11,119 bases of DNA from assembly GCA_937951485.1 (NCBI GenBank), contig CALEDJ010000073.1, positions 1-11,119 on the forward strand. The letters are read 5' to 3'. The position numbers and the translations under genes are program-made. This document shows positions 197 through 10,614 of this stretch, piece after piece. Every line of letters begins with the position of its first letter. The first letter of the stretch is position 1. The DNA is from an uncultured bacterium (GTDB lineage: Bacteria > Hydrogenedentota > Hydrogenedentia > Hydrogenedentales > CAILVY01). The notes under the pieces were generated by a model. That model was not told where the DNA came from. It did not search any database and saw only the letters and a list, made by a program, of their open reading frames with translations.

Positions 197-225
197 TTGA
201 CTGTCGCCGGGTGCTCCGGTATCAT
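197..225 (+). promoter_or_regulatory. sigma70-type promoter for the ABC ATPase operon
   Basis: The -35 box TTGACT (197-202) and -10 box TATCAT (220-225) each match consensus at 5 of 6 positions and are separated by exactly 17 bp. Transcription would start near 232. That leaves a leader of roughly 68 nt before the ATG at 300 and excludes the in-frame upstream ATG at 225 as the start codon. Confidence 0.65.
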
Positions 226-282
226 TGCTGCGCGCCGGGGGGATTCTTCCGCGTCCGGCGCCGGTGGAAAGCGCAACATCTT

Positions 283-288
283 CGGAGG
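283..288 (+). promoter_or_regulatory. ribosome binding site deciding the ATPase start
   Basis: CGGAGG lies 11 nt upstream of the ATG at 300. The in-frame ATG at 225 has no comparable site and sits inside the -10 box, so 300 is the better start. Confidence 0.6.
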
Positions 289-299
289 CTAGAAAAAAC

Positions 300-1406
<1,107 letters not shown>

Positions 1407-1458
1407 CGACAGGGCGTCGCAGGTTGAAGCCCGTACTCCAGAACTTGGGACTGATTTG

Positions 1459-2211
1459 ATGTTTCCTGACCCCGTGTTTCCATGGCCCAACGACGCCGAG
1501 GTGGGACTGAGCATCACCTTTGATGACGCCCGCGCCTCCCAACTGGAAGTCGCTCTCCCAATTCTGGACGCCTCTGGAATAAAAGCCACCTTCTTCGTGA
1601 TGCCGGCGCCATTGGAACAACGCGCGGACAACTGGCGCGCGGCCCTTGTCGCCGGCCACGAAATCGGCAACCACACCGTCACACACCCATGCACCCGGAA
1701 TTTCTCCTTCATTGGTAAGAATGCGCTGGAGGCCTATTCGCTCGATGATATGGAATGGGAAATCCTTCACTGTAACGACCGCGTCGAGCAGTGTTGCGGG
1801 GTGAAACCTGTGGTTTTCGCCTATCCCTGCGGCCAGACCTACGTTGGTCAGGGCGCGCATACGCGCAGTTACGTCCCTCTTATCGCGGACCATTTCGTCG
1901 CTGCGCGCGGCTTCCCCGGCGAACGCCACAACCTCCCCGGCCGCTGCAACCTGCACCAGGTGTTCGGTTGCCCATTTGACTGCCTCACATTCGAGGCGGT
2001 GCTCGCCATGATCAACGCGGCCCGCGAAGAGCGCGGCTGGCTCGTACTCGCCGGTCACGACGCCGGCGACGGAAGACAGCGGCAGACAGTGGACGAAAAG
2101 ACACTGCGGATGCTCTGCGAATACGCGACCGACCCGCGAAACCGCGTTTTCGCGGATACCTTCGGGAATATCGCAGAAAGCATAAAGAAAAAGAACCGGA
2201 CGGCGGAATAA
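1459..2211 (+). CDS. Polysaccharide deacetylase family protein (NodB/CE4 fold)
   Basis: This 250-aa protein belongs to the carbohydrate esterase 4 superfamily, metal-dependent enzymes that remove N- or O-acetyl groups from glycans. Motif 1 is TFDD (20-23; D22 the likely base, D23 a metal ligand). Motif 2 is HTVTH (72-76), giving two metal-binding histidines. A motif-3-like AYPCG lies at 121-125 and a motif-5-like LAGH, with H200, at 197-200. The N-terminal strand-helix pattern (TFDD ... ILDASGIKATFFV) is typical. I see no signal peptide, so it is probably cytoplasmic, unlike many CE4 cell-wall enzymes. It may therefore act on imported sugars or intermediates. The ATG at 1459 is preceded by a weak GGGA; an in-frame TTG at 1456 is an alternative. 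The open frame extends upstream inside the ATPase gene but is antagonistic to it. Substrate unknown. Confidence 0.85.
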   Translation: MFPDPVFPWPNDAEVGLSITFDDARASQLEVALPILDASGIKATFFVMPAPLEQRADNWRAALVAGHEIGNHTVTHPCTRNFSFIGKNALEAYSLDDMEWEILHCNDRVEQCCGVKPVVFAYPCGQTYVGQGAHTRSYVPLIADHFVAARGFPGERHNLPGRCNLHQVFGCPFDCLTFEAVLAMINAAREERGWLVLAGHDAGDGRQRQTVDEKTLRMLCEYATDPRNRVFADTFGNIAESIKKKNRTAE

Positions 2212-2230
2212 CGACGAAAGAGACGGGTCC

Positions 2231-3397
2231 TTGAGTATCAATCTGGAGATCGCAAAAAAAGCATTTGAACGTGAATTTCAGCGCGCCCCGGAGACCATCG
2301 TCCGCGCGCCCGGCCGGGTCAACATCATCGGCGAACACACCGACTACAACCACGGCTATGTGTTGCCGATGGCCCTCGAACAGGCGACGTATATTCTCGC
2401 TGCGCGACGTACCGACTGCCAGTTACGCGCCTGGGCCGCGAATATGGATGCGCGGTGTGTCGCCGGTCTCGACCTTCGCGTACGCCGTCCCGAGGCCCCG
2501 TGGATGGATTATGTGATAGGGGTGGCCGATGAACTGGCCAAACTGGGGTATCCGTTGACCGGCGCAGACCTCATGATCCAGGGAGATGTGCCTGTCGGCT
2601 GCGGGCTGAGCAGCTCTGCGGCGCTCGAAATGGCCGCGTTGCGCATGTTCGAGTCGCTGGCCGGGTTCCGTTTGGACGGCCCCGGCGCAGCCCGTCTGGG
2701 CCAGCGGGTTGAGAATCATTTCCTGGGCCTGAACACCGGCATCATGGACCAGTTCATCTCGCGCTGCGGCCGCGCCGGATGCGCGCTCTTTCTCGATTGC
2801 CGCACCTACGAATACGAACTTATCCCGGTGGCCTTTTCCGGCGCGGTGTTCATCATCGCCAACACGCGCTGCGCGCGCGGGCTGACCGCCTCGAAATACA
2901 ATGAGCGCGTCGCCGAATGCGCCGAAGCGGTCCGTGTGCTGGCCGAGCGCACGGGGAAAGGCGGCACGCACCTCCGTGATTTCACCCTCGAGGACCTCGA
3001 AGCCTGCCGCGAACACCTGCCTGATATTCCTTATCGCCGGGCGCGTCATGTCATCACGGAAAACATGCGGACCCTGGATGCCTGTGCCGCCATGCGGGCC
3101 GGCGATGCCGCGGCGCTGGGCGCGCTGATGAACGCCTCCGGCGACAGCCTGCGCGCTGACTATGGAGTCACCAGCCCGGAACTGGACGCGATGACCGACG
3201 CCGCGCGCGGATTGCCCGGCTGCCTTGGCGCGCGGATGACGGGTGCGGGTTTTGGCGGTTGCACTATCAACCTCGTCGAGGAATGTGAATCAGCCGGATT
3301 TGCGGATGCCCTGATGACGCAATACACCCGATGCACTGGGCTCGAGGGCGAAGTCTTCGTCTCGCGACCGGGAGATGGGGCAGCCGTATTGGAGTGA
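2231..3397 (+). CDS. galK: Galactokinase (GHMP kinase family)
   Basis: This 388-aa enzyme phosphorylates alpha-D-galactose to galactose-1-phosphate with ATP, the first committed step of the Leloir pathway, in the cytoplasm. The galactokinase signature GRVNIIGEHTDYN is at 28-40; R29, E35, H36 and D38 are the expected sugar-binding residues. The GHMP ATP-binding motif PVGCGLSSSAA spans 121-131. The likely catalytic aspartate is D173 in GIMDQF. A SKYNER motif (221-226) and the C-terminal GARMTGAGFGGC (333-344) complete the fold. The start is TTG at 2231: there is no earlier ATG in frame, the next Met is too far in, and this start gives the normal N-terminus. The RBS is weak. It lies 19 nt after the deacetylase and is probably co-transcribed with it. 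No galT or galE is in the window. Confidence 0.95.
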   Translation: MSINLEIAKKAFEREFQRAPETIVRAPGRVNIIGEHTDYNHGYVLPMALEQATYILAARRTDCQLRAWAANMDARCVAGLDLRVRRPEAPWMDYVIGVADELAKLGYPLTGADLMIQGDVPVGCGLSSSAALEMAALRMFESLAGFRLDGPGAARLGQRVENHFLGLNTGIMDQFISRCGRAGCALFLDCRTYEYELIPVAFSGAVFIIANTRCARGLTASKYNERVAECAEAVRVLAERTGKGGTHLRDFTLEDLEACREHLPDIPYRRARHVITENMRTLDACAAMRAGDAAALGALMNASGDSLRADYGVTSPELDAMTDAARGLPGCLGARMTGAGFGGCTINLVEECESAGFADALMTQYTRCTGLEGEVFVSRPGDGAAVLE

Positions 3398-3414
3398 AAT
3401 CAGTTCTCTGGATC

Positions 3415-3433
3415 TTGTGCGGCACAGTTTTTT
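3415..3433 (+). terminator. Possible intrinsic terminator after galactokinase
   Basis: Eighteen bases after the galactokinase stop, TTGTG (3415-3419) pairs with CACAG (3423-3427) around a three-base loop, with one G-U pair. Six T residues follow (3428-3433). The stem is short, so termination may be partial. Confidence 0.45.
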
Positions 3434-3549
3434 ATCAGGCATTTGCGCGAAAGGCCCATTAGTGCCTTGGGCATGGAAAGCATCGGATTTTTCTGACAAT
3501 GCCGGCAACAGGAATACCCGTTTCACACAGGTGTCTTCAATGCCTTTGT

Positions 3550-3579
3550 TTGACAGTTTTTGGAATCATGTGGCAGAAT
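3550..3579 (+). promoter_or_regulatory. Promoter candidate for the pilin operon
   Basis: A perfect -35 TTGACA (3550-3555) is followed after 18 bp by CAGAAT (3574-3579), which matches the -10 consensus at 4 of 6 positions. A TGG precedes it, fitting an extended -10 (TGn). It would give a leader of about 200 nt before the first pilin gene. The rest of the 3398-3785 gap holds the terminator candidate and the structured leader listed separately. I saw no sigma54-type element there. Confidence 0.45.
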
Positions 3580-3615
3580 TAAACGAGCCTCGTTGCTCCA
3601 CACCTTACGTATTTG

Positions 3616-3746
3616 CCGGTTCCTCGGGGGAGAAGAACGGGTCGTGCTTCGGCGCGTCAAAAGCGCTAATAGTAAAGGAGAACCGGAAATCATCATGCCA
3701 AGGTCACCGAGTAAGGCAGTGTGCCGATGCCTGCCATTGGGCACAT
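3616..3746 (+). promoter_or_regulatory. Candidate structured 5' leader RNA of the pilin operon
   Basis: Several helices can be drawn in the leader. A 7-bp outer helix is CCGGTTC (3616-3622) with GAACCGG (3680-3686). Inside it is a 5-bp hairpin with the very stable UUCG loop (CGTGC 3643-3647, GCGCG 3652-3656). TGCC (3696-3699) can pair with GGCA (3715-3718). A 7-bp hairpin is GTGTGCC (3719-3725) with GGCACAT (3740-3746). The region ends 39 nt before the first pilin start codon. It does not show the conserved sequence blocks of c-di-GMP-I or c-di-GMP-II riboswitches as I remember them. No known class is recognised. Confidence 0.35.
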
Positions 3747-3773
3747 GGACAGCCCGACATGAAGTCTGAAAAT

Positions 3774-3778
3774 GGAGA
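3774..3778 (+). promoter_or_regulatory. ribosome binding site deciding the first pilin start
   Basis: GGAGA lies 7 nt upstream of the ATG at 3786. It supports that start over the in-frame ATG at 3759, which would give a leader peptide nine residues longer. Confidence 0.6.
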
Positions 3779-3785
3779 AACATGC

Positions 3786-4253
3786 ATGAAAACACTGCGC
3801 AGCGTCTCCGAAAGAGGAATCACTTTGCTTGAAGTGATGGTCGCCTTTTCGATTTTTGCCATTGTGATAGGGGTAACGGCGACTTCGCTGGCCTCTTTTT
3901 ATGTCACGATGGACATGCAGCACGAGCGCATCGGGGGCGTGCAGTCGTGTCGATCGGTCATGAGCGCCGTTCGCGAAAAGCGCGGGCAATTTCTTCTGGC
4001 ACACGATGAATTTGACCGGGCTGGTCTATTGCAGTGGATTCAGGAGAAAAATGAAGAGGGATGGCTTGATTTTATTCATTCAGGACCGGCGGGACTCGAC
4101 GACCATCAGATTGTCGTGGACTGTTTTAACATGACTGGATCGCCTGCTTCCGCGGAAGACAGTCCCCTGCGGGTACATGTCAGAGCCACATGGCGTGACA
4201 TGAAAGGACGCCCCATGAATGCCCAGATAATTTCTGTGATCGCAGACCAATAG
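3786..4253 (+). CDS. Type IV prepilin-like protein, PilV/GspI-like minor (pseudo)pilin
   Basis: This 155-aa protein begins with a class III (prepilin) signal. An 11-residue basic leader ends in Gly11, followed by ITLLEVMVAF with Glu16 at the diagnostic +5 position, and a hydrophobic helix to about residue 30-38. A PilD-type prepilin peptidase would cut after G11 and methylate the new N-terminus. The TLLEVMVA sequence and the C-terminal strand around VHVRATWRDMKG (130-141) resemble PilV and GspI, minor subunits that initiate a type IV pilus or type II secretion pseudopilus. Two cysteines (C55, C113) could form a disulfide in the periplasm. It is the first gene of a tight four-gene operon; its stop codon overlaps the RBS of the next gene. 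The frame is open well upstream to 3375, but that part lacks pilin character and is probably non-coding. Pilus or secretion system assignment is open. Confidence 0.85.
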   Translation: MKTLRSVSERGITLLEVMVAFSIFAIVIGVTATSLASFYVTMDMQHERIGGVQSCRSVMSAVREKRGQFLLAHDEFDRAGLLQWIQEKNEEGWLDFIHSGPAGLDDHQIVVDCFNMTGSPASAEDSPLRVHVRATWRDMKGRPMNAQIISVIADQ

Positions 4254-4256
4254 GAG
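4252..4256 (+). promoter_or_regulatory. RBS overlapping the upstream stop codon
   Basis: AGGAG overlaps the TAG stop of the preceding pilin gene (4251-4253) and lies 9 nt before the ATG at 4266. This supports ATG 4266 over the in-frame TTG at 4257, which is only 1 nt from the RBS core. It suggests translational coupling of the two pilins. Confidence 0.65.
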
Positions 4257-4265
4257 TTGCAACGC

Positions 4266-4901
4266 ATGCGCAGCAAAGGATTTACGCTGTTGGAAATGAT
4301 GATGGCGGTATCCATTCTGGCCATTGTCGGGCTGCTTGGCTTAATTGTCATATCGTCTTCCGCGGAATCCGCCGAATTGGCGCAGGCGAAAGCGGAAGTA
4401 CAGGCAGGTCTGCGTGATGTCATGGCGGCCATCATGGACGCTGTCCGTGAGGCTTACACCGATCGCACCGTTGCTGTTTCGCCGCCCCGTTCCCCGGTCA
4501 ACGTTGAGAGCATTCAGACCTCGGAAAGCAATGATCGCATTACATTCCATGTTCCCGTACGGGTTGCGGGGACGGCAATTGTTCGGGGGTCAACCCCCAT
4601 CACTATCCAGTTTGAAAACGAAGATGCCAACGGCAACGCCCTGTTGGATTCCGGCGAAGACCTGAATGGCGACGGCACGCTGAACCGCCGCGTACTTCGA
4701 ATGCAGGACGGCCAAACGCAGGTGCTTGGCGCCTCCAACAACATCAGCAATTTGCGTTTTGAATTGCAGCCCAATCAGAACGCTCGCGATAATCTATTGA
4801 CATCGCTGTATGTGTGGCTTGAGGCATCCAGACGCTATGGCCCAGGCATGAAACACCTTGTGCGCGCCGAGTTGGCAGCGGTCATAGACCTCAAGAACTG
4901 A
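4266..4901 (+). CDS. Type IV prepilin-like protein, PilW/GspJ-like minor (pseudo)pilin
   Basis: This 211-aa prepilin has a very short leader, MRSKG, followed by FTLLEMMMAV; Glu10 is at +5 after cleavage. A hydrophobic helix runs to about residue 30. The position after a PilV/GspI-like gene, the size, and the segment QVLGASNNISNLRFEL (152-167) followed by an aromatic strand fit PilW/GspJ, the subunit between I and K in the pseudopilus tip. An acidic loop at 117-139 (ENEDANGNALLDSGEDLNGD...) is rich in Asp, Asn and Gly and resembles calcium-binding or dockerin-type loops. Minor pseudopilins of type II secretion are known to bind calcium, but here this is inferred from sequence alone. No cysteine is present. 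The gap to the next gene is 25 nt with a strong RBS. Confidence 0.85.
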   Translation: MRSKGFTLLEMMMAVSILAIVGLLGLIVISSSAESAELAQAKAEVQAGLRDVMAAIMDAVREAYTDRTVAVSPPRSPVNVESIQTSESNDRITFHVPVRVAGTAIVRGSTPITIQFENEDANGNALLDSGEDLNGDGTLNRRVLRMQDGQTQVLGASNNISNLRFELQPNQNARDNLLTSLYVWLEASRRYGPGMKHLVRAELAAVIDLKN

Positions 4902-4926
4902 CACATAACAAGAAAAGGAGGGGCGT

Positions 4927-7245
4927 ATGAACGATAACCGGAAACGACAGAAAGGCATGGCCCTGCTTTTTGTGATGGTTTCCATCATTGTCATTCTGGG
5001 CGCGTTGGCGCTGATCATGATCCAGGTGCAGGGTGCAAAACGGGAGTCCGACCACGCCTATGCGATGATCGCAGCGGAAGAGGCCGCCATGGCGGGCATT
5101 GACATGGCCGCCCAAACGCTGTGGTCGGACTATATCGTGAGCAACGGCAACACCACGGGGAACTGGGCGTCCTACCGATTCTATCTCAATAACGTTCTGG
5201 AAATACCCAAGAATGAAGATTTGAATTTCAACGGGGTTCAGGACCCAGAGGAAACGGGAGACGGCGACGGCGTTTTTGACACGTATCCTCCGGGATATGA
5301 TCAGCGCGGCTGGGCAATGCTCGATGAACCATTGCCATTCACTGATCCTGACACGGGCATGGTGGTGTCAACGTTGGACAGCGTGCACATTGCGCGTTAT
5401 GATCAAATCTCCCGGTCTGTTTTGACCGTCACTTCCACCGGTTCCTCCATGGGCAAAACCAGAACTGCCATTCAGATAGTACATGTCGGGGGGACACCTA
5501 CGCCACATACCCAGTTTGCCATTCTTGCCAATAACATCAGTTGCATCCTGTGCCATGCGGAATTCTTGTCGCTTCCTTTGCAAAACAACACCGATCCCTC
5601 TTTATATGGCAGTTTTGATCGCATCAAGATTGCGGCGTTGGAATCGCTGCTGGTGCGAAAGACAGAAGCGGCATCAAACGTGGCGGGAACGGTCTATACC
5701 CGCGGGCAAGTCTATGACGAACGGAACAGACTGTATACCCCTGAAGGGCTTGCAGGGTCAACCTTCAAAGCGTATCACTTCAGCAACGAGAATGGAAAGA
5801 TCACGCAAGACGCCTCGGGCAATATGACCAATGTGGGTCTTTTGAACGCCGCACTGAACGAACGCGGAGAACTCAACCAATTCGCGAATCTCTACATGAA
5901 TTATCCCGAGGACCCACTCCTGCAAACGGACGGACTGGTGCCCGGCACCTTTCCGGCGCCATTCCCGGATGAAAACGGCGATCGCTACGTCAACGATGAT
6001 GAGTTTGAACGGATCGTGCAAACGGCCAACGGCAGGATTGCTTTTGAATATGGTCCGGAAGCCCCGCCGGGCGGCGCCATCATGGCGGGGGTTGCCTACG
6101 GCGTGCCCAAAGGTTCTGTCTATACGGGGACAGGATTGCCCACAGCGTCGAATGCCGCCCTTGACAGTCTGTCCTCCACGGGGTCCTATGAAGGCAATCT
6201 ATTCCTGGTTGGCACGGATGACGACCCCATTATTATTGACAGAACAGTGGCTGTGGACGGGGACGTTGTAATCAAAGGCCCCATCAAAGGGTATGGGCAA
6301 TTGCTTGCCCGGGGTAATGTCTATATTGTGGGCGACGTTACTTATAAGGATGCCCCGGGCGTATTTGGACGGGACGAGGACGGCAATGAGAACGCCTTCG
6401 CTCTGGTGGCGGGGGGCAGCATCATGATGGGTGACTATCTTACGGTGCGTGGTGTCAACCACAGCGCCCGGGAAAACGAACAGTATCCCCGGTGGCAGGA
6501 GTACAGCATTCACATGCGCGAAGCCCACCGGCAGAACAACGTGACCATTAACGGTGTTACGGAAACGCTGCGATGGGGCTATTTCGATGAATGGTCGGTG
6601 GATTCCGGGCAAATCGTGCCTGGACGCCGCGGCCAGCAGTTCAGTTTCACCACTTCAGAATTGAAGTTGTTCAATAAAATGGAATTGCAAAAAGCGCTGG
6701 CAGACCCGGATTATGTACCGCGTTTCTACGGACTGAGGGAAAGTCAACCCAACAACATATACATCTACGACGCAAGCGATGAACATGCTGTTCGATATAC
6801 TGCGCCGGGGGTAAAGTTGCTTTCGGACTACCTGATTGAGAAAGGACTGCCCCTGGATATTCTGGATCGCGCCGCCTTTCATTATTGCAGCCCGGCCGGC
6901 AATTGGATATCCGAAAACACCTTGCGCAATATCTGGTTTGAAGACGAACTTTCGCGTCCGTCCACGGGACGGCCTTTCCGTTTTGATGGTCTGCTTTACA
7001 GCAACAATTCCATCTGGGCCATTGTGCGAAGCAAGACCAGGCACAAATCCAACACAAATGGATCCATGGACATTCGCGGCGGCGTTATCGCCGCCGATCT
7101 GGGCGTCTTTGTCCCCGGCAATGGCAGCACGGTGGGGTTGCGACTTTACTATGACCCTCGTGTGGAGCGATTTCTGGAAATTCGTGACACTTCCCGCGTT
7201 TCTTTTGAACGCGCGGCGTTTTATTTCAAGCGGGATGCCGCCTGA
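4927..7245 (+). CDS. Large PilX/GspK-like pilus-tip protein with CxxCH motif
   Basis: This 772-aa protein opens with a basic leader ending KG (residue 10), then MALLFVMVSIIVILGALALIMI. Phe replaces the +5 Glu, as in GspK-type tip pseudopilins, and the segment around AMIAAEEAAMAGID (46-59) matches the conserved helix of PilX/GspK proteins. Only the N-terminus would be membrane-anchored; the rest would be periplasmic or extracellular. CILCH (206-210) is a perfect CxxCH heme-c attachment motif; the only other cysteine is C654. Acidic loops lie at 96-118 and at 348-359 (DENGDRYVNDDE), the latter fitting an EF-hand loop. A repetitive beta-rich stretch (VDGDVVIKGPIKG...GNVYIVGDVTY, about 442-473) and another near 712-745 suggest a beta-solenoid-like passenger. 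It is more than twice the usual GspK length. The RBS is excellent (GGAGG, 5 nt before ATG). Precise role unknown; the K/X-like assignment is firm only for the N-terminus. Confidence 0.8.
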   Translation: MNDNRKRQKGMALLFVMVSIIVILGALALIMIQVQGAKRESDHAYAMIAAEEAAMAGIDMAAQTLWSDYIVSNGNTTGNWASYRFYLNNVLEIPKNEDLNFNGVQDPEETGDGDGVFDTYPPGYDQRGWAMLDEPLPFTDPDTGMVVSTLDSVHIARYDQISRSVLTVTSTGSSMGKTRTAIQIVHVGGTPTPHTQFAILANNISCILCHAEFLSLPLQNNTDPSLYGSFDRIKIAALESLLVRKTEAASNVAGTVYTRGQVYDERNRLYTPEGLAGSTFKAYHFSNENGKITQDASGNMTNVGLLNAALNERGELNQFANLYMNYPEDPLLQTDGLVPGTFPAPFPDENGDRYVNDDEFERIVQTANGRIAFEYGPEAPPGGAIMAGVAYGVPKGSVYTGTGLPTASNAALDSLSSTGSYEGNLFLVGTDDDPIIIDRTVAVDGDVVIKGPIKGYGQLLARGNVYIVGDVTYKDAPGVFGRDEDGNENAFALVAGGSIMMGDYLTVRGVNHSARENEQYPRWQEYSIHMREAHRQNNVTINGVTETLRWGYFDEWSVDSGQIVPGRRGQQFSFTTSELKLFNKMELQKALADPDYVPRFYGLRESQPNNIYIYDASDEHAVRYTAPGVKLLSDYLIEKGLPLDILDRAAFHYCSPAGNWISENTLRNIWFEDELSRPSTGRPFRFDGLLYSNNSIWAIVRSKTRHKSNTNGSMDIRGGVIAADLGVFVPGNGSTVGLRLYYDPRVERFLEIRDTSRVSFERAAFYFKRDAA

Positions 7246-7254
7246 AAATGAACA

Positions 7255-7262
7255 GGAAGGAG
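7255..7262 (+). promoter_or_regulatory. ribosome binding site deciding the HEAT protein start
   Basis: GGAAGGAG lies 9 nt before the ATG at 7272. The in-frame ATG at 7248 has no RBS and would add eight charged residues ahead of a clean signal peptide. Confidence 0.65.
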
Positions 7263-7271
7263 TACGGAACG

Positions 7272-8174
7272 ATGAGAAAAATGACGTGTTTTCTGGCCAT
7301 GAGTGTCATGGCCTCCGTTTCCGGTGCGGACACGATATATCTGAAGAACGGCGTCTTTTTTGACGGGATCATCACAGTGCAGGCGGATGGCACATATCGT
7401 GTCCAGGCGGGGCCGCGCACCCTCATTTATCGTGAATCAGAAATAGACCGCATCGAAAAAAATGATCGCACCGGACGTCCCGACAAAGAAGCCATGAAGG
7501 CGCGCTGGTTGGAACGCGACAACGAGTTGACCCGTTTGACGGGATTGTCCACTGAACAACGGAAACAGGTGGATGCCCTGCTGTCTAAACTGGTGCGTGC
7601 GGAAGGAGGAGACATCGTCAGCATACGCGAGCGCTTCGTTGCCTTGCAGTCGGAGATGGATGTGTTTCGTTACCTTGAATTCCTGCTGCAGGACATGAGC
7701 TACATTCTGATGCCGAGAGTCCTGGAAATCATCTGCTACCTGGATGCGGGCCGTGCTCCGAAAATTCTGCGCGTCGCCGCGGAGCATCCGTATTACGGCA
7801 CCAGAGAAAAAGCGCTGGAGTGGCTTGGACGCCTGCAGGACCGCGCCAGTATCCCCCTTATCGCCCGTGGCCTGCTGGACGGGATGCCTGAAGTGCGCAT
7901 TGCGGCAGCCTATGCCTTGGCCAACAGTGGCGGAATCGAAGCGACGCCGGTGTTGATTGAATCACTGAAACATTTCGACATGCGGGTGGCCAATGCCAGC
8001 CGCGAGGCGCTGGATGCCCTGTGGCAATCAAAATATGGCACGCAGAAGCCCCGAACCGTAGATGAATGGAAGGAATTCTGGGCCGCCCACGCGAACAGCA
8101 TCGCTGCCGCACCGATTTTTCCAGATAATCTGAAACCATTGATTGACTCCGACCTGGAACTGCACGTGAGTTGA
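7272..8174 (+). CDS. Secreted HEAT-repeat protein with N-terminal small beta-barrel-like domain
   Basis: This 300-aa protein starts with a probable Sec signal peptide (MRKMTCFLAMSVMASVSGA, cleavage near residue 19). Next comes a short beta-rich domain (about 20-63, DTIYLKNGVFFDGII ... DRIEKN), a pattern common at the mature N-terminus of exported proteins in polysaccharide-degrading bacteria. A charged helical region follows (70-150), then two or three HEAT-like alpha-helical repeats (about 160-252), each with the alternating helix pattern REKALEWLGRL and VRIAAAYALANSGG. It ends with a DEWKEFWAAH segment. HEAT repeats form protein-binding solenoids. It follows the K/X-like gene by 26 nt and is probably the last gene of the pilin operon, so a periplasmic partner or scaffold role is plausible but inferred. 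It has no catalytic motif that I recognise. A mature Cys at the lipobox position is absent, so it is not a lipoprotein. Confidence 0.75.
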   Translation: MRKMTCFLAMSVMASVSGADTIYLKNGVFFDGIITVQADGTYRVQAGPRTLIYRESEIDRIEKNDRTGRPDKEAMKARWLERDNELTRLTGLSTEQRKQVDALLSKLVRAEGGDIVSIRERFVALQSEMDVFRYLEFLLQDMSYILMPRVLEIICYLDAGRAPKILRVAAEHPYYGTREKALEWLGRLQDRASIPLIARGLLDGMPEVRIAAAYALANSGGIEATPVLIESLKHFDMRVANASREALDALWQSKYGTQKPRTVDEWKEFWAAHANSIAAAPIFPDNLKPLIDSDLELHVS

Positions 8175-8202
8175 CACGGCAGCGGTTGTTCTGTTCCGAT
8201 CG

Positions 8203-10614
8203 CTATGGCTCCAGAGGAAGCAGTTCCCATGATTCCGGATTCTCGATGCGGACGGAGAACCCCTCCGGAACCGTGATTGCATAACGCAGCGTTTTCGCTT
8301 CTCTGCGCCACGCAAGTGTAATTTCTGAATTCCCGACAGGGATACGCCCCTGGCAGGACTTCAGCGGCACATCGGCAAAGCGCACCCGCACTTCCTTGTT
8401 GACGGGGTCAATGTGGCGCAGACCCAGCACATCGCGATAGAGGGTGACGACGATGTGCGAGGCGAAGCCGTGATTCAGGCTCGCATAATCGCCGATGTTC
8501 TCCCACAAGGTTCCCGTGCGTTCGGCCATGTACAGCAGATAATCAATCGCCTCTTCCAGAATCTGTTGGGAGCATCCCGCGCGCGAAAGCAATTCGAGGC
8601 GAATCATGTTGCCGATAAAGGCATTCGCTTCATGGATTTCAGGATATGCCTTCGTGTCTTTGCGTTTCGGACCGAATTCCTCGCACAACCGCCGCCATAA
8701 TTCCGGATGGGATTCCGGCGTGGCCACCCCGAAATAGAACGCGAAATACTGGCATACCTCGGTGCGGTTTTCCGTCACTTCCAGGCGGCCCTCTTTGCGC
8801 ACCGCGTTGTCCACGAAAAATTCGCCATCATAAGATTGACGCCGGATCACCTCAAGGATTTGTTCGGCCTCCTTTTCCAACGCTTCCAGATCATACAGAC
8901 GCGCCGCCGTGGACAAGGCCGCCGCATAGAGCATGTTGGAGGGATAGTTCACGTCCTGCACGAAACGGTTGGCCGCAGACCATTCCACAAAAACCCAACT
9001 CTCCAGTTTCTCCAACAGGCCGTCTTCGTTCCGAAATCGTTTGAAATAATCGAAGAGCGCAAGCACCTTCGACTTCAGCGCATCCGCAAGAACACGGTCC
9101 CCGCTGCGCTCGACGTATTCGCCCAGTTGCAGCACGAACCACAACGCCCAGTTCGGAATGAACACGCCATCATAGTGATCCGCCGGATAGCACATCGGAA
9201 GCATGCCCTCCGGTAAGTGCGCAAAACGTTCCGGCAGCAGGTAGTTCTCCAGAAAATTGCGCTCCACACGCGTGTCACCCGACAGCAACATCGCAGACCG
9301 CGCCGTGAAAAACGAATCACACAGCCAGCCCGCCCGTTCCCGGTGCGGACAATCCATGAAAATATCCAGGGCGTTCTGCGCAAAAGTCGTCACGCCCGCC
9401 GCGAACAATGTGTTCAGTCGCGCATCGTCCGCCACGAATTCCGCCCGTGTGGTGTCCGGGTTCTCATATAGACGCAGGCCGATGCCCGAAACCTCGCATG
9501 CACCGTCCAGCGCGATGATTTTCAAATACCGCAAGGTGTACGGCTCAAAAGATTCCAGTACGTATTCGCCCGCTTCCAGACGACAGGCGATCGCATTCAC
9601 GCAGCCAAGTCGTTTGAAGTTCACATCGCCCTCATGCAGCATTTCGTCAAAGGTCACATACAGGCGCACGGGTGACGCGCACGCCACCCGCAACTGGACA
9701 AATCCGCTCAGGTTCACGCCCAAATCGAGAATCTGATATCCTTTCTCGGGGATATGCAACGACGCGTCGGGATCATACGGCGCATTTTGCGCCATGCTGG
9801 AAACATTCCTGATGCGCTCGACCTCATACGAAACGATGTATTCCAGTTCATTTTCAGGATACCCCCCCAGTTTTGGTCCGATATCCTTCAGGCTGCGGTC
9901 GCGCCAATAAGACCGCAGTCTCTCCAGTTCCTCGACGCTGCCCTGCGAGACCAGTCCCACGGCGGCGCGCGACTGCAGCACGGGGTAGGGGACCCCGCGC
10001 GGCAGCAGTCGTTTCGGCTCGGTCTCAGCGCATGCGGTTATTGGGAATCCCACGTCGGGGTCAATGCGCCACCGGTCATATTCGGGACGCATCCGGTAGG
10101 CTTCCATGAACGGCCGCTGGAAACTGTAGCGCTGCACCTTCTGCACCCGCTCCGGCAACACGCTTGCGGCAAATTCCCCGCCGGGCGCGCCGGTTGCGGC
10201 GAGAATTTTTCCGTTTACCTCAACTTCCGCCTGCAGGAACGATGGTTGATCGAGCAGATAGTAACTGTTGACGTTGTAGCCCGCCACCTCAATCGCTACC
10301 ACATTGCGCCCGGGAGTCAACAGGCCGCTTATGTCCCACGCATCCACGCGATACCAGCCATGCGGCCCGCGCGCTGGGCCATAGCCCGCCATATGCCCGT
10401 TCACGAACGCCCGATATACCGTCGAAGCGGTGAGGCGAAGAACGGCAGATGTTCCCTCCGGCGCATCCACCACCGCCCGGAATCCCACAAACAGATTCCG
10501 CTCCGTCTCCCGGCCTTCCGGCCACACCGGCCTGGCTTTCTGAAACCCTGGTTCAAGAACGTCCTGAGTCGCTGCAACATTCATCATGGCGATCACCAAT
10601 ATCATCCCCGACAT
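8203..10614 (-). CDS. GH78-like alpha-L-rhamnosidase
   Basis: This 803-aa glycoside hydrolase is expected to release terminal alpha-L-rhamnose from glycosides or polysaccharides by an inverting mechanism. The N-terminal part (about 40-135) is a beta-sandwich typical of bacterial rhamnosidases, with YRAFVNGHMAGYGPARGPHGWYR. A further beta region lies at 290-385. The (alpha/alpha)6 barrel starts near 390. D421, E426 and D433 in DCPHRERAGWLCD keep the spacing of the substrate-binding acidic residues described in Bacillus RhaB, and E705 in GTLWE fits the other key acid. SLNHG (712-716) is also typical. The N-terminus (MSGMILVIAMMNVAA) is hydrophobic and may be a weak signal peptide lacking basic residues. 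The start ATG at 10614 is preceded by GGAAGGGA. The gene converges on the HEAT gene with a 28-bp gap and no clear terminator. It has its own promoter. Rhamnose specificity is inferred. Confidence 0.88.
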   Translation of the reverse strand: MSGMILVIAMMNVAATQDVLEPGFQKARPVWPEGRETERNLFVGFRAVVDAPEGTSAVLRLTASTVYRAFVNGHMAGYGPARGPHGWYRVDAWDISGLLTPGRNVVAIEVAGYNVNSYYLLDQPSFLQAEVEVNGKILAATGAPGGEFAASVLPERVQKVQRYSFQRPFMEAYRMRPEYDRWRIDPDVGFPITACAETEPKRLLPRGVPYPVLQSRAAVGLVSQGSVEELERLRSYWRDRSLKDIGPKLGGYPENELEYIVSYEVERIRNVSSMAQNAPYDPDASLHIPEKGYQILDLGVNLSGFVQLRVACASPVRLYVTFDEMLHEGDVNFKRLGCVNAIACRLEAGEYVLESFEPYTLRYLKIIALDGACEVSGIGLRLYENPDTTRAEFVADDARLNTLFAAGVTTFAQNALDIFMDCPHRERAGWLCDSFFTARSAMLLSGDTRVERNFLENYLLPERFAHLPEGMLPMCYPADHYDGVFIPNWALWFVLQLGEYVERSGDRVLADALKSKVLALFDYFKRFRNEDGLLEKLESWVFVEWSAANRFVQDVNYPSNMLYAAALSTAARLYDLEALEKEAEQILEVIRRQSYDGEFFVDNAVRKEGRLEVTENRTEVCQYFAFYFGVATPESHPELWRRLCEEFGPKRKDTKAYPEIHEANAFIGNMIRLELLSRAGCSQQILEEAIDYLLYMAERTGTLWENIGDYASLNHGFASHIVVTLYRDVLGLRHIDPVNKEVRVRFADVPLKSCQGRIPVGNSEITLAWRREAKTLRYAITVPEGFSVRIENPESWELLPLEP

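Follow-up and report, generated by a model that had tools for sequence, protein, structure and literature searches.

Does a pilin-like protein of an uncultured member of the Hydrogenedentota carry a covalently bound heme? The question is raised by an open reading frame for a protein of 772 residues at positions 4927..7245 (+) of the stretch of DNA analysed here, which is the complete contig 73 (11,119 bases; hereafter the window) from a 4.55-Mb genome assembled in 77 contigs. A preliminary description of the window had reported the heme c-type motif CILCH at residues 206-210 of this protein and a single further cysteine. Both were confirmed: the motif is encoded at 5542..5556 (+), and the protein contains C206, C209, C654 and no other cysteines. 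We propose that the protein is a ComZ-like tip pilin of a type IV pilus or pseudopilus, with one heme c attached covalently at C206 and C209 and H210 as the proximal ligand, and we give this reading a probability of about two in three (0.68).

Conservation of the CxxCH motif

The proposal depends first on whether the motif is kept among relatives. In an alignment of 73 sequences (43 from Hydrogenedentota, 10 from a second phylum, 19 from the family that contains Thermus, a lineage name inferred from ComZ sequences, and one from a named Deinococcus plasmid), C206, C209 and H210 were invariant in 73/73. Because the rows of this alignment were chosen for having the motif, the check that matters is the list of relatives ranked by profile score. 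Down to approximately 99 bits, all sequences on that list that cover the site have CxxCH, and those above 99 bits that are without it are fragments starting after the site. The first sequence that covers the site and is without CxxCH was found at 88 bits. Relatives were present in 45 of the 147 genomes searched, nearly all of the same order, and every one that covers the site has CxxCH.

The sequence within the motif is less constant. The 10 relatives from the second phylum, found at approximately 38% identity, have CIMCH or CSMCH, the 19 from the Thermus-containing family have CIFCH, CVFCH or CLFCH, and the Deinococcus plasmid relative has CVMCH. Both x positions are thus variable, and the codons of the motif show synonymous variation among relatives (TGC/TGT and CAC/CAT), which argues for selection at the level of the protein. 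CxxCH was also present in six more distant relatives, five proteins of a second family (CMYCH) and one remote relative (CQFCH), around which little else aligns; no further case was seen in the phylum of the remote relative among its five genomes. Conservation in homologues had been suggested as a check in the preliminary description, and with the close and the distant relatives together its outcome was strongly positive. The motif is single and short, and the protein is large, as would suit a chance occurrence. From composition, 1.8e-4 occurrences are expected per such protein, and CxxCH arose in 3 of 20,000 shuffles of the sequence. Given its invariance over very divergent relatives, chance is refuted by conservation and we consider it extremely improbable.

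Conservation was not confined to the motif. R232 and R259 were present in 73/73 sequences of the joint alignment and K234 in 71/73. Other residues of the same turn of the solenoid described below, L238 and R244, were invariant or nearly so, and G10 near the N-terminus was invariant as well. No other Cys, His or Met was conserved across the groups in the 73 sequences.

Two further observations concern the distribution of such genes. Loci L144-L147 and L156, in the Thermus-containing family, encode a second, highly divergent family of solenoid pilins with CMYCH at the equivalent position. At locus L121 (genome G065, 2499-8286) the CxxCH-type pilin gene occurs twice, with the same kind of exported protein after each copy, which is a tandem duplication; genome G047 also has two copies.

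Fold of the protein and relatives without the motif

Searches of Pfam and NCBIfam left the body of the protein without a family, with weak MinC_C/GspK matches at most. The GspK match covers residues 8-81 at the N-terminus and is weak (15.4 bits), far from the NCBIfam T2SS_GspK cut-off of 130. The nearest named record, from a Candidatus Hydrogenedentota metagenome-assembled genome, is 70% identical over the protein. The fold was taken from AlphaFold2, which was run twice on this one protein, the second time with a more diverse alignment; the two models agree (mean predicted local distance difference test scores of 86.5 and 87.8). In the models, a helix at residues 2-72 (assigned by DSSP) is followed by a pilin-type beta-sheet to residue 191, an inserted beta-solenoid at residues ~192-750 that contains the CxxCH motif, and a final pilin strand at 753-767. 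The prepilin-type segment (residues ~11-72, 4957..5142, +) forms a single long helix after G10.

Thermus thermophilus ComZ (PDB 6QVI) was the sole Foldseek match with an E value <0.001 (E 2.9e-6). VIA-align superposed the model on 6QVI_A with a Z score of 15.9 over 346 aligned residues and a root-mean-square deviation of 11.5 over both domains, and the inserted solenoid alone matched ice-binding proteins with a Z score of 13. In ComZ, too, a solenoid is inserted before the last pilin strand, and a location at the tip has been proposed for it (Salleh et al. 2019, PMC6561018). Like the gene studied here, the ComZ gene lies among those of minor pilins. ComZ binds DNA and is without CxxCH, and at the level of sequence its similarity to the 772-residue protein is within noise: the profile match has an E value of 0.1, which does not support membership of ComZ. 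A search of PDB sequences with the first alignment gave no matches, and one with the second gave, besides ComZ, matches at chance level only. Among these was a cytochrome c chain (E 1.2) aligned over 41 residues around its own CTFCH, which is too weak to be used.

We conclude from the models that the protein has a ComZ-like fold, a pilin-like domain with an inserted beta-solenoid. This match strengthens the earlier reading of a tip protein and sharpens the label 'PilX/GspK-like', which holds at the N-terminus by the weak GspK match, whereas the protein as a whole is more precisely ComZ-like. GspK itself has a helical insertion in place of the solenoid, and CxxCH is not, to our knowledge, part of GspK.

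CxxCH falls within the first turn of the solenoid domain (residues ~192-259, 5500..5703, +), as part of an insertion. The turn includes the conserved residues R232 to R259 named above, and the domain boundary at its start was taken from the VIA alignments, which begin at residue 192. In the models CxxCH occupies a loop flanked by two short strands, close behind the linker that leaves the pilin domain. In pilins the N-terminal helix anchors the protein and the domain that follows is exported. The model has a single N-terminal helix, of prepilin type and ahead of the domain with CxxCH, so that all later residues are expected to be exported; a motif outside the membrane, as had been supposed, agrees with this.

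The first turn is shorter, and without CxxCH, in the other solenoid pilins that the same profile recovered (for example FDYSYFMNHFGWW), and ComZ has such a short version too. Homologues that keep the fold and lose the motif had been named in advance as evidence against heme. Proteins with the fold and without the motif do occur in separate, distant branches (Thermus ComZ and these other solenoid pilins) and did not occur inside the CxxCH family; trees of the shared core did not separate loss of the motif from its original absence in the solenoid pilins without CxxCH. In genome G489 (3.1 Mb), from the same family as the Thermus-type genomes, a ComZ gene (E 3e-89 to 6QVI) lies approximately 5.7 kb from a CIFCH gene in the same pilin cluster. 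The two are therefore distinct genes and their products presumably have distinct jobs.

Heme, metal site or electron carrier

If heme is attached, the cell must be able to attach it. The genome of the window has two PF01578 matches together with ResB (PF05140) matches, an arrangement typical of system II, so the search for cytochrome c maturation genes suggested in the preliminary description was positive. PF01578 and PF05140 were each found in 62 of 66 Hydrogenedentota genomes, and PF01578 in 30 of the 30 carrier genomes tested outside the Hydrogenedentota. One Hydrogenedentota genome (G008) has the pilin and a ResB gene near a contig end and gave no PF01578 match; the PF01578 partner may have been lost at the contig end.

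Several points weigh against the heme reading. Heme attachment is a putative assignment made from sequence. The modelled fold is not that of a cytochrome c. A distal ligand conserved across the groups was not found: H706 is restricted to Hydrogenedentota, and H620 and M714 to the second phylum. The iron may instead be five-coordinate or ligated by Lys or Tyr. Finally, many bacteria have cytochrome c assembly genes, so that these permit attachment of heme and do not prove it.

In a rival reading, CxxCH would bind a metal (zinc or iron) or form a disulfide at its CxxC, in place of a heme site. Many exported proteins use CxxC pairs to bind zinc or to form disulfides, and both the predicted loop between two short strands and the fold, which is not cytochrome-like, would suit such a role. 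However, the His that directly follows the second Cys varies no more than the cysteines do and a disulfide does not need it, the 73 sequences conserve no further Cys or His that could complete a Cys/His metal site, and genes for cytochrome c assembly are present in every carrier tested outside Hydrogenedentota. We regard a metal site or disulfide as unlikely.

A heme in a tip pilin could also be an electron-transfer or respiratory cofactor, with electrons passing through it where the tip meets a mineral, a partner cell or a soluble carrier. The exposed location at the tip, by analogy with ComZ, is in keeping with this, and at one locus in the second phylum cytochrome-like genes with CxxCH lie upstream at a distance of a few kb. 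Yet there is only a single heme, and no route from the tip back to the cell is evident for its electrons. CxxCH is absent from the adjacent minor pilins both on the Deinococcus plasmid and in the window, where they have two and zero cysteines, and most of the loci read have no other heme-motif gene adjoining. A link to electron transfer, raised in the preliminary description, is not supported by one heme motif with none in the adjacent pilins and no universal distal His or Met. We find the electron carrier improbable, and long-range conduction is not supported.

For the heme-bearing tip pilin we envisage the following sequence. The N-terminal helix would insert the protein in the membrane, and the Ccs (system II) machinery would load heme onto the periplasmic domain before assembly. 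The protein would then cap a small tip complex with two neighbouring minor pilins, in the manner of GspK with GspI and GspJ. The heme would sit close to the pilin-solenoid hinge; we guess that its propionates could be contacted by the conserved R232 and K234, which follow the motif. The role of the heme would most likely be structural or redox-responsive, in that it would hold or adjust the fold of the tip and the contacts of the tip with partners; since a lone heme forms no chain, we favor such a role over conduction.

We know of no pilin that carries a covalent heme. A heme-bearing pilin was not found in the open-access literature, where TfcP, a separate protein, was the one close case. TfcP of Myxococcus xanthus is a noncanonical cytochrome c that is needed for the pilus tip complex and was judged not to act in electron transport (PMC8833165). 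The two cases share a single heme c motif with a tie to the tip complex of type IV pili. They differ in that TfcP, a soluble protein of the periplasm with a cytochrome c fold, stays outside the pilus, whereas the motif described here is inside a pilin-like protein. TfcP is the closest precedent, a cytochrome c of importance for assembling a pilus tip without a part in electron transport. A broader proposal, which we hold only tentatively and consider doubtful, is that these proteins form an undescribed heme-bearing tip family in at least three lineages, in which a single covalent heme at the hinge senses redox state or gas, or accepts electrons, at the distal end of the pilus and alters binding by the tip or retraction. 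If the heme is real, its conservation in a tip protein across distant lineages would mean redox or ligand-sensing chemistry at the tip, which has not been looked for before, and would tie the assembly of pili to the maturation of cytochrome c.

The pilin gene set and its surroundings

The gene for the tip pilin follows those of two minor pilins, its likely partners. The first (3786..4253, +; 155 residues) has a GspI/PilV-like N-terminus with N_methyl PF07963 above the cut-off, and the second (4266..4901, +; 211 residues) has a GspH/GspJ-like N-terminus with PF07963 and TIGR02532 both above the cut-off. The order of two smaller pilins and the large one resembles the GspI-GspJ-GspK tip set. Downstream is a HEAT-repeat protein (7272..8174, +; 300 residues; HEAT_2 PF13646, E 7e-11) with a probable signal peptide, which is a conserved neighbour. 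At homologous Hydrogenedentota loci, many of which end at contig boundaries, relatives of minor pilin 1, minor pilin 2 and the HEAT-repeat protein were found 24, 34 and 38 times, respectively. This recurrence indicates that the set belongs together.

Secretins and PilB/GspE-type ATPases are encoded elsewhere in the genome. On contig 5 the genes for one secretin and one ATPase lie close to that for a protein whose PilX_N match is below the cut-off, and the filament machine is therefore encoded apart from the tip set. ComEC was found in 63 of 66 genomes, which is permissive only for DNA uptake of the ComZ kind.

The named homologue is WP_239051903.1, the CVMCH protein of the Deinococcus sp. KNUC1210 plasmid, a CxxCH ComZ-like pilin encoded at NZ_CP092194.1 108194-110356 (L168 6049-8211) with three prepilin genes after it. 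Its database name, 'polymer-forming cytoskeletal protein', reflects neither the pilin segment nor the heme motif, and names of this kind would be corrected. Culturable strains of Deinococcus or Thermaceae would allow a direct test of the reading.

The remainder of the window encodes an alpha-L-rhamnosidase-like glycoside hydrolase (8203-10614, -) and, at 225-3397, an ABC transporter ATPase, a polysaccharide deacetylase and a galactokinase-like GHMP kinase. Tandem repeats of 54 bases that are similar to one another lie at both ends of the contig (1-112 and 10981-11119; 2.1 and 2.6 copies), and the contig probably ends there from the assembly breaking in these repeats.
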